47,310 nt of DNA from Candidatus Thalassarchaeum sp. (lineage in GTDB: Archaea; Thermoplasmatota; Poseidoniia; Poseidoniales; Thalassarchaeaceae), in assembly GCA_022449945.1 (NCBI GenBank), contig JAKURM010000007.1, positions 1 through 47,310 on the forward strand, read 5' to 3'. A program made the translations under genes and the position numbers. A model generated the notes under the pieces. It had not been told where the DNA came from. It made no database searches and saw nothing but the letters and a program-made list of their open reading frames with translations. The first letter of the stretch is position 1. The number at the start of each line of letters is the position of its first letter. Shown one piece after another: positions 24,645 through 26,230 of the stretch.

Positions 24645-24923
24645 CTAACTGAAATGCTCGTTAAATGCCCCCTCGCTCATTGCCTTCAGAGCTTCCTTTG
24701 GCTCCATTCCTTCTACCCTTATACGCATACCAACGCAAGTTCCCATAATCTCCCTACATCTCGCATAAAGCGTCTTTCCAGTCAAGCGGTCCTTCTGAGA
24801 CTCTGCCACGCTCTTCACCTGGTCCATTGTCATGTTCTCAGTCGAGGCATCCCAAGAGCCATTGGACTTCTTTTGTCCCAGAGTCTGCAAGATTTTGTGA
24901 GGGGTCTCGTTGCGTGCTGACAT
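24645..24923 (-). CDS. rpl11: Ribosomal protein L11, C-terminal domain only
   Basis: 92 residues; archaeal L11 is normally about 160. The segment from TMDQVKSVAE through GKTLYARCREIMGTCVGMRI to VEGMEPKEALKAMSEGAF is the C-terminal, rRNA-binding L11 domain, including the conserved GTCVxMxxxVEG block. The first 30 residues (TPHKILQTLGQKKSNGSWD) match only the linker before that domain. The N-terminal domain, which contacts translation factors and thiostrepton, is missing. The start is sound: GAGGTGAT precedes ATG 24923 and an in-frame TGA lies four codons upstream. Only 82 bases separate it from the Spt5 stop, too few for the lost domain. Order Spt5-L11-L1-L10-L12 is the usual archaeal one. A second full-length L11 elsewhere cannot be excluded. 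Confidence 0.88.
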   Translation of the reverse strand: MSARNETPHKILQTLGQKKSNGSWDASTENMTMDQVKSVAESQKDRLTGKTLYARCREIMGTCVGMRIRVEGMEPKEALKAMSEGAFNEHFS

Positions 24924-25005: not shown

Positions 25006-25872
25006 CTACTCGACCCGCTGGGTCACCCTTACTTGGTCGGCTCTAACTGTTAGTGCAACAGGAACCGCTGCTTCGAATAGCTCCACGGTGACCTCTTCCT
25101 TCGACTCAGCCACTCGGGTGACTCTGGCCGTTTGTCCACGGAAGGCACCACCCGAGATTTCGACAATGCACCCTTCCTCTATTCCCGAGGTGGCCGCCTT
25201 GGGCTCTAGATAAGGAAGGACATCTTCCAATGGACTTTCACCACCAAGTACCTTGCTGCAATTCTTGAGTGGCGTTACTCCCACGCCGACTCTGCCTATC
25301 AATTTCTGAACGTGATGCATGGCAGTAGCCTCAATGAAGATGTAACCCTTCATGAAATGGGGACTCAGGACTCCGAATATCTTGTCTTGGATATCCTTCA
25401 ATGATCCGGTTCCTGAAAGTCTGGCACGAATTTCGGTTGCTACATTCTGCTCTTGGCCTATGGAAGTCTTCAGAATATAGAGGTATGATGCAACGTCTCC
25501 ATACATGTCCTTTAGTTGAGGGGTTGCGTACTCTTTTTCCTGAATTTTCCCTGGATCGACCCACTCGTAACCCTTGTACAATGTTCCCGGGCTAACATCA
25601 ACCTCCTCCGTCATGAACAAAATTGGTGTAACATCATTCAAGCGGTTTCCATAGGCAAGCCCCCTTGCCATTCCCGTTCTAACAATGTCTAGATTCTCTG
25701 CGGTAATTCCGGTACACTCGGTTATTCTCGAAATTATTGAATCCACGTCTCCGTGATCCCCCACGCCGTAGATCCCGTCCCATGCACCTGGGAAGTCGGC
25801 CACTTCGTCGGCCCTCTGCATTAGCAGGACCTTCTCTCCGCTTCGGAGGTATACCGTGAATGCCTCTGACAA
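25006..25872 (-). CDS. spt5: Transcription elongation factor Spt5 with N-terminal degenerate Nudix-like domain
   Basis: 288 residues from TTG 25872; archaeal Spt5 is usually about 150. The C-terminal half is standard: NGN domain about 129-224 (ASYLYILKTSIGQEQNVA, HFMKGYIFIEA) and KOW domain about 228-280 (EEGCIVEISGGAFRGQTARV). NGN binds the RNA polymerase clamp with Spt4. The first 120 residues read as a Nudix fold: VLLMQRADEVADFPGAWDG, GDHGD, RITECTGI, then VRTG and YEWVDPGKI. In the Nudix box, of the REUxEE glutamates only one survives (R, E, C at the three positions), so hydrolysis is unlikely. The TTG follows the SecE stop by 8 bases with a GGTGAG site overlapping that stop; ATG 25896, 8 codons earlier, would overlap SecE by 16 bases and lacks such a site. 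Confidence 0.88.
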   Translation of the reverse strand: MSEAFTVYLRSGEKVLLMQRADEVADFPGAWDGIYGVGDHGDVDSIISRITECTGITAENLDIVRTGMARGLAYGNRLNDVTPILFMTEEVDVSPGTLYKGYEWVDPGKIQEKEYATPQLKDMYGDVASYLYILKTSIGQEQNVATEIRARLSGTGSLKDIQDKIFGVLSPHFMKGYIFIEATAMHHVQKLIGRVGVGVTPLKNCSKVLGGESPLEDVLPYLEPKAATSGIEEGCIVEISGGAFRGQTARVTRVAESKEEVTVELFEAAVPVALTVRADQVRVTQRVE

Positions 25873-25884
25873 ATTCTCACCTAA
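25870..25884 (-). promoter_or_regulatory. Stop-overlapping ribosome site setting a TTG start (SecE to Spt5)
   Basis: Reads TTAGGTGAGAATTTG on the minus strand: the SecE stop TAG, a GGTGAG ribosome site beginning inside it, 8 bases after the stop a TTG. The RpoF start at 40200 has the same sequence from the stop through the TTG, which supports TTG 25872 as the Spt5 start. Confidence 0.65.
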
Positions 25885-26144
25885 CCAGTCAACCATCCAA
25901 AGAAGGACGGGAATACATTGACCATCAATGCGAGAATCAGGAATCCTATTGCGCCAAGAACGAACATGCCAATTCCGCAGACAATCACAGTCTGTCTGAA
26001 CTCTTGCTTAGACGGCTTTTTTGCCATCTTCAGAATTCTGGCGTAGGAACCGGTCTGAAGGCCCTTGACTCGCCCCTCTATTTCGTCCTGCCAGGTCTGT
26101 GCGAGCTCTTCGATAGCACCAACATTGGAATTTTCAACAGCCAT
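25881..26144 (-). CDS. secE: Protein translocase subunit SecE / Sec61 gamma
   Basis: 87 residues from ATG 26144. A cytosolic amphipathic N-terminal half (about 10-50, with KMAKKPSKQEF at its end) is followed by one membrane helix (about 55-80, VIVCGIGMFVLGAIGFLILAL), the normal SecE architecture. It stabilises SecY in the protein-conducting channel. A GGTGG site precedes this ATG; the longer frame from 26165 has less support. It lies between FtsZ and Spt5, the arrangement found in many euryarchaea, and its stop codon is used in the Spt5 ribosome site. Confidence 0.9.
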   Translation of the reverse strand: MAVENSNVGAIEELAQTWQDEIEGRVKGLQTGSYARILKMAKKPSKQEFRQTVIVCGIGMFVLGAIGFLILALMVNVFPSFFGWLTG

Positions 26145-26230
26145 GCTACCACCAAGAAGCATCACGGCGACCTACAGACCCCATTTAAGGACGACGGGGA
26201 GATAGAATGCGGAATAATGACAGGCTAGGC

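Follow-up and report, generated by a model that had tools for sequence, protein, structure and literature searches.

In the marine archaeal order Poseidoniales (marine group II), Spt5, a universal transcription elongation factor, carries at its N terminus an additional domain with a predicted Nudix fold, and in this domain two of the three glutamates of the REUxEE portion of the Nudix box are gone in all 77 distinct sequences compared. The window analysed here, a stretch of 47,310 nucleotides (contig JAKURM010000007.1 of assembly GCA_022449945.1), belongs to this order, a named relative with 97% identity being a Candidatus Thalassarchaeaceae genome; the 288-codon frame at 25006-25872 on the minus strand is real, and is the Spt5 of a ribosomal stalk operon in the order secE-spt5-rpl11-rpl1-rpl10, likewise on the minus strand (rpl1 and rpl10 being assigned by reading their translations). 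We consider it quite likely that the common ancestor of Poseidoniales acquired, by in-frame fusion at the front end of Spt5, a once-active Nudix protein whose family survives in Thermoplasmatota as stand-alone genes; that its metal-binding catalytic residues were lost; and that the domain, carried by RNA polymerase through the NGN domain (with Spt4), would now act as a non-catalytic binding module.

Table 1. Features of the spt5 locus, in coordinates of the window
Feature	Position	Strand	Evidence
secE / Sec61-gamma, upstream in the operon	25881..26165	-	PF00584 1.4e-5
Shine-Dalgarno-like AGGTGA, 4 nt before TTG, overlapping the secE stop	25877..25882	-	sequence
spt5, 288 aa, TTG start, TAG stop: pseudo-Nudix domain, linker, NGN, KOW	25006..25872	-	ORF, translation, TIGR00405 2.1e-31, start conserved in relatives
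N-terminal pseudo-Nudix domain (predicted), residues 1-118	25519..25872	-	AlphaFold, Foldseek, hhalign, TIGR02150, Pfam NUDIX
Degenerate Nudix box, residues 36-56 (GVGDHGDVDSIISRITECTGI)	25705..25767	-	counts over 77 sequences; alignment to active family
NGN domain, residues 130-192 (Pfam match)	25297..25485	-	PF03439 8.3e-11, above cut-off
KOW motif, residues 235-263	25084..25170	-	PF00467 0.0032, 17.7 bits, below cut-off 22.3; inside TIGR00405 match
rpl11, C-terminal RNA-binding domain of uL11 alone, 92 aa, downstream of spt5	24645..24923	-	PF00298 2.1e-6

The Nudix fold and its degenerate box

An earlier note, made by reading the letters of the window, had proposed a Nudix fold for the front of the protein from short motifs that are all present, and both a predicted model, with the alpha/beta/alpha arrangement of the fold, and profile homology assign residues 1-118 to it. 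Specifically, i) AlphaFold, run on residues 1-123 with 24 related sequences, gave a confident model (pLDDT 85.7, pTM 0.81); ii) the best 50 Foldseek matches in the PDB all belong to the Nudix superfamily, and include NTP pyrophosphohydrolases, Ap4A hydrolases, RppH, IPP isomerase, and the archaeal MutT protein 3grn (TM 0.73); iii) hhalign against the stand-alone Nudix family of the same phylum gave a probability of 99.1% (E 1.2e-18, 115 columns), which establishes homology at the level of sequence profiles; and iv) the Pfam NUDIX profile matches 17 of 24 members, the best at 9.5e-5. The single domain of the window protein scores 15.2 bits with that profile, below the cut-off of 21.1 and near noise, and a search of the PDB by sequence with this domain gave nothing significant; relatives in the PDB were reached by the profile of the stand-alone family and by fold search only. 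The best curated sequence match is TIGR02150, type I IPP isomerase (1.4e-5, 25 bits against a cut-off of 105.8). Chance coincidence is disfavoured by the conservation of the fused frame, the fold, and the motif across 111 genomes and by the independent matches to the fold.

The active Nudix box reads GX5EX7REUXEEXGU, and its Glu cluster binds metal. In the window the three Glu positions of REUxEE are R49, E52, and C53, from which the earlier note had judged catalysis unlikely, and the pattern extends across the 77 sequences: the Glu position of REU is always basic, with Arg in 76 and a single Lys; the first Glu of EE (E52) is retained in 72; and the second is replaced by Cys, Ser, Val, or Ala, with Glu in none. 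The box with its Glu residues, as active hydrolases have it, is accordingly absent. In the stand-alone relatives E51 and E55 are invariant, and E54 nearly so. Because the REU Glu has become basic and the third Glu has been lost without exception, hydrolase chemistry as in known Nudix enzymes is very unlikely on the sequence evidence.

Residues that are invariant in the fused domains and unshared with the stand-alone family include R10, D32, G33, T54, G71, P83, Y99, and D106-P107-G108; R49, present in 76/77, is likewise unshared. The ancestral active-site loop and helix carry positions 32, 33, 49, and 54, and the DPG motif leads from the domain into the linker towards NGN. Few parts of the domain are as well conserved as the former active-site segment, which suggests that the cleft still matters, and this conservation fits a ligand site as well as it fits docking.

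Possible roles of the domain

The function we favour, with a confidence somewhat short of even, is to dock a protein partner on the polymerase or the ribosome. Appreciably less likely is that the remodelled active-site cleft, where a basic residue takes the place of the catalytic Glu, binds a small phosphorylated ligand; RNA binding by the domain is rather doubtful; and the remaining probability falls to a purely stabilising role or residual chemistry. We lean towards docking over sensing, and keep sensing as an alternative: the domain would bind a nucleotide, an alarmone resembling one, or the 5′ end of an RNA, leave it uncleaved, and adjust elongation. Nudix folds often retain ligand binding after catalysis is lost, and D32, G33, R49, E52, and T54, invariant or nearly so, lie on the ancestral active-site loop and helix, with a basic residue at position 49 in 77/77; however, both the loss of the metal-binding Glu cluster and the acidity of the domain (pI 4.35) make general RNA or NTP binding less likely, and the low pI counts against unspecific RNA binding in particular. 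We regard a ligand sensor of this kind as possible but unlikely, and give the same weight to the nucleotide or RNA-cap sensing that the earlier note had inferred; of its elements, the Nudix fold, the broken box, and a genuine fusion made from one start have stood.

It is improbable that the domain binds nothing else and serves purely to stabilise Spt5 or its polymerase contact, as DII does in Thermotoga NusG. Precedents for such a role are found among the extra domains of NusG (PMC7819879), and the conserved DPG motif at the C-terminal edge of the domain points to the linker, but conserved polar residues also lie round the old active site, away from that edge. In the full-length AlphaFold model the NGN is too poorly predicted to place the domain on the polymerase. 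Of 60 genomes of the class, 55 encode Spt4 (PF06093), and the genome of the window does so too (6.2e-13); the idea that the domain replaces Spt4 was rejected on its presence.

Much less probable again is that the domain retains enzymatic activity through altered residues or through another chemistry, for example an isomerase-like one. The top curated match is type I IPP isomerase, which is related to Nudix enzymes but differs from them in its chemistry, and E52 persists in most sequences, but the score lies so far below the family cut-off that membership is not indicated, and the other two Glu positions are never Glu.

Distribution, origin, and translation start

The survey of Spt5 that the earlier note had proposed places the domain in all 111 complete Poseidoniales genes of the class (both families; a further eight genes are truncated at contig ends or reported in pieces) and nowhere else in the sample: Spt5 of the sister family of the same class begins at NGN, and no fusion to Spt5 was found outside Poseidoniales in either the sister family or the phylum sample. 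The survey covered a sample of Thermoplasmatota and a scan of close relatives, other phyla being reached through that scan alone. A stand-alone homologue that keeps the Nudix-box glutamates is present in two sister-family genera, and in the phylum sample, homologues of the domain either stand alone as Nudix proteins or follow an AcnX swivel domain at the C-terminal end; by domain profile, the fused copy is the only homologue in Poseidoniales genomes. Among the residues shared with the stand-alone relatives are the Trp, the box Gly, and the conserved Arg that follows the second strand. In the tree the fused domains group as a single clade (100/100) with a long stem branch of 2.74 changes per site, for which no single closest Nudix donor emerges; on this phylogeny the domain arose once. 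Nor could any relative be found in viral contigs at the sensitivity of the search, or any stand-alone Nudix gene beside spt5 in other genomes within stretches of about 6 kb. Median Nei-Gojobori dN/dS over 157 comparable pairs was 0.05 for the extra domain against 0.01 for the remainder of the protein, values that are rough given large synonymous distances and non-independent pairs; even so, the extra domain is plainly under purifying selection at the protein level.

Two further kinds of fusion were seen in the phylum. Several Thermoplasmatota have, fused behind the AcnX swivel domain (in archaea the small subunit of phosphomevalonate dehydratase), a Nudix domain that retains the catalytic box, and this fusion perhaps links to isoprenoid synthesis. 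In at least seven other Thermoplasmatota families Spt5 has an N-terminal domain of about 125 residues, probably Ig-like, to judge by Pfam hits that are all weak; it occupies the same end of Spt5 as the pseudo-Nudix domain but is unrelated in sequence, and remote homology between the two was rejected (hhalign probability 0.1%). The presence of unrelated domains at the same end suggests that this is a useful attachment site. The earlier note had set the 288 residues found here against a usual length of roughly 150; the former figure holds, but in several other Thermoplasmatota families Spt5, with an unrelated domain at its N terminus, is about 270-300 residues long.

Downstream of spt5, rpl11 lacks the sequence for the factor-binding N-terminal domain of uL11 (PF03946), which was not found in the genome of the window. 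This domain is over cut-off in 0/39 Poseidoniales genomes versus 18/21 sister-family genomes and, in the phylum sample, in 0/34 Poseidoniales genomes versus 107/111 of the rest, sister-family genomes included. By sequence comparison, the Spt5 domain gain and the uL11 domain loss are placed on the same branch; a causal link between them is conjecture, and so is a link of the pseudo-Nudix domain to the ribosome. We would think it a long shot that the transcription-translation interface was rebuilt in one step in the Poseidoniales stem, with the new Spt5 domain docking on, or signalling to, a ribosome altered by loss of the factor-binding domain, or reading a nucleotide signal there.

The gene itself matches the whole-family Spt5 profile TIGR00405 at 108.8 bits (cut-off 69.95), and its C-terminal part holds the NGN and KOW domains, as the earlier note had described. 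Its longest frame opens at an ATG at 25896, and conservation among relatives places the start at the ninth codon of this frame, at 25872, where the window has TTG and most relatives have ATG; this is also the start implied by the coordinates of the earlier note. A Shine-Dalgarno-like match lies ahead of it in 74/77 distinct sequences. A Met directly before NGN, present in 69/77, offers the one plausible start that would leave out the extra domain, and a start there had been named in advance as what would undo the fusion; an internal start there is not supported by the sequences, and was rejected because no Shine-Dalgarno-like match precedes that Met in any of the 77. That this Met is nevertheless used, the upstream part being a relic or a separate peptide, is scarcely credible, given also that some species have TTA, CTC, or CTA in its place, that dN/dS of the domain is low, and that the frame is open in 111 genomes.

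Three observations concern Spt5 sequences elsewhere. In Poseidoniaceae the NGN of Spt5 is lengthened after LIGR by an insertion of some nine residues (GGRDPxxRR), which is missing from Thalassarchaeaceae. Two genomes contain second Spt5-like matches without the Nudix domain (spans 29-505 and 177-608; 41% and 30% identity), perhaps reflecting binning contamination or a paralogue. JAOMAZ010000006.1, titled Deltaproteobacteria bacterium AH-558-G13, carries a Poseidoniales spt5 locus, and the record is probably mislabelled or contaminated.

Significance and comparison with known systems

If our account is right, an entire marine archaeal order has fixed an inactivated enzyme domain on Spt5, which would be a clear exaptation from enzyme to adaptor; relatives with the catalytic box persist and allow comparison, and the domain adds a testable attachment point on the elongating polymerase. 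Together with loss of the uL11 N-terminal domain, this makes the order stand out as unusual in core gene expression. The open-access literature searched, outside which most subscription papers lie, yielded no paper on a Nudix domain in an Spt5 or NusG protein, and the fusion, of which the earlier note likewise knew no description, appears to be undescribed in that literature.

In reviews, archaeal Spt5 consists of NGN and one KOW, with Spt4 (PMC6391919). The Poseidoniales protein resembles archaeal Spt5 (TIGR00405) in its NGN and KOW, in its place after secE and before rpl11, and in the presence of an encoded Spt4, but differs in about 120 extra residues with, here, a predicted Nudix fold. The stand-alone Thermoplasmatota Nudix family, unlike the Spt5 fusion, keeps the box Glu residues and an IDWEH motif, and occurs as separate genes or behind the AcnX swivel domain. 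DII of Thermotoga maritima NusG is also a lineage-specific extra domain (PMC7819879); it sits as an insertion inside the NTD in the account of PMC6391919, which does not call it Nudix, whereas the pseudo-Nudix domain is N-terminal. Finally, CFIm25/NUDT21 has a Nudix fold without hydrolase activity and plays an RNA-binding part in gene expression (PMC3287031), but it binds UGUA in eukaryotic 3′-end processing and is not fused to an elongation factor; for an RNA-binding pseudo-Nudix domain on Spt5 it offers a precedent only, which the acidity of the Poseidoniales domain does not encourage us to extend.
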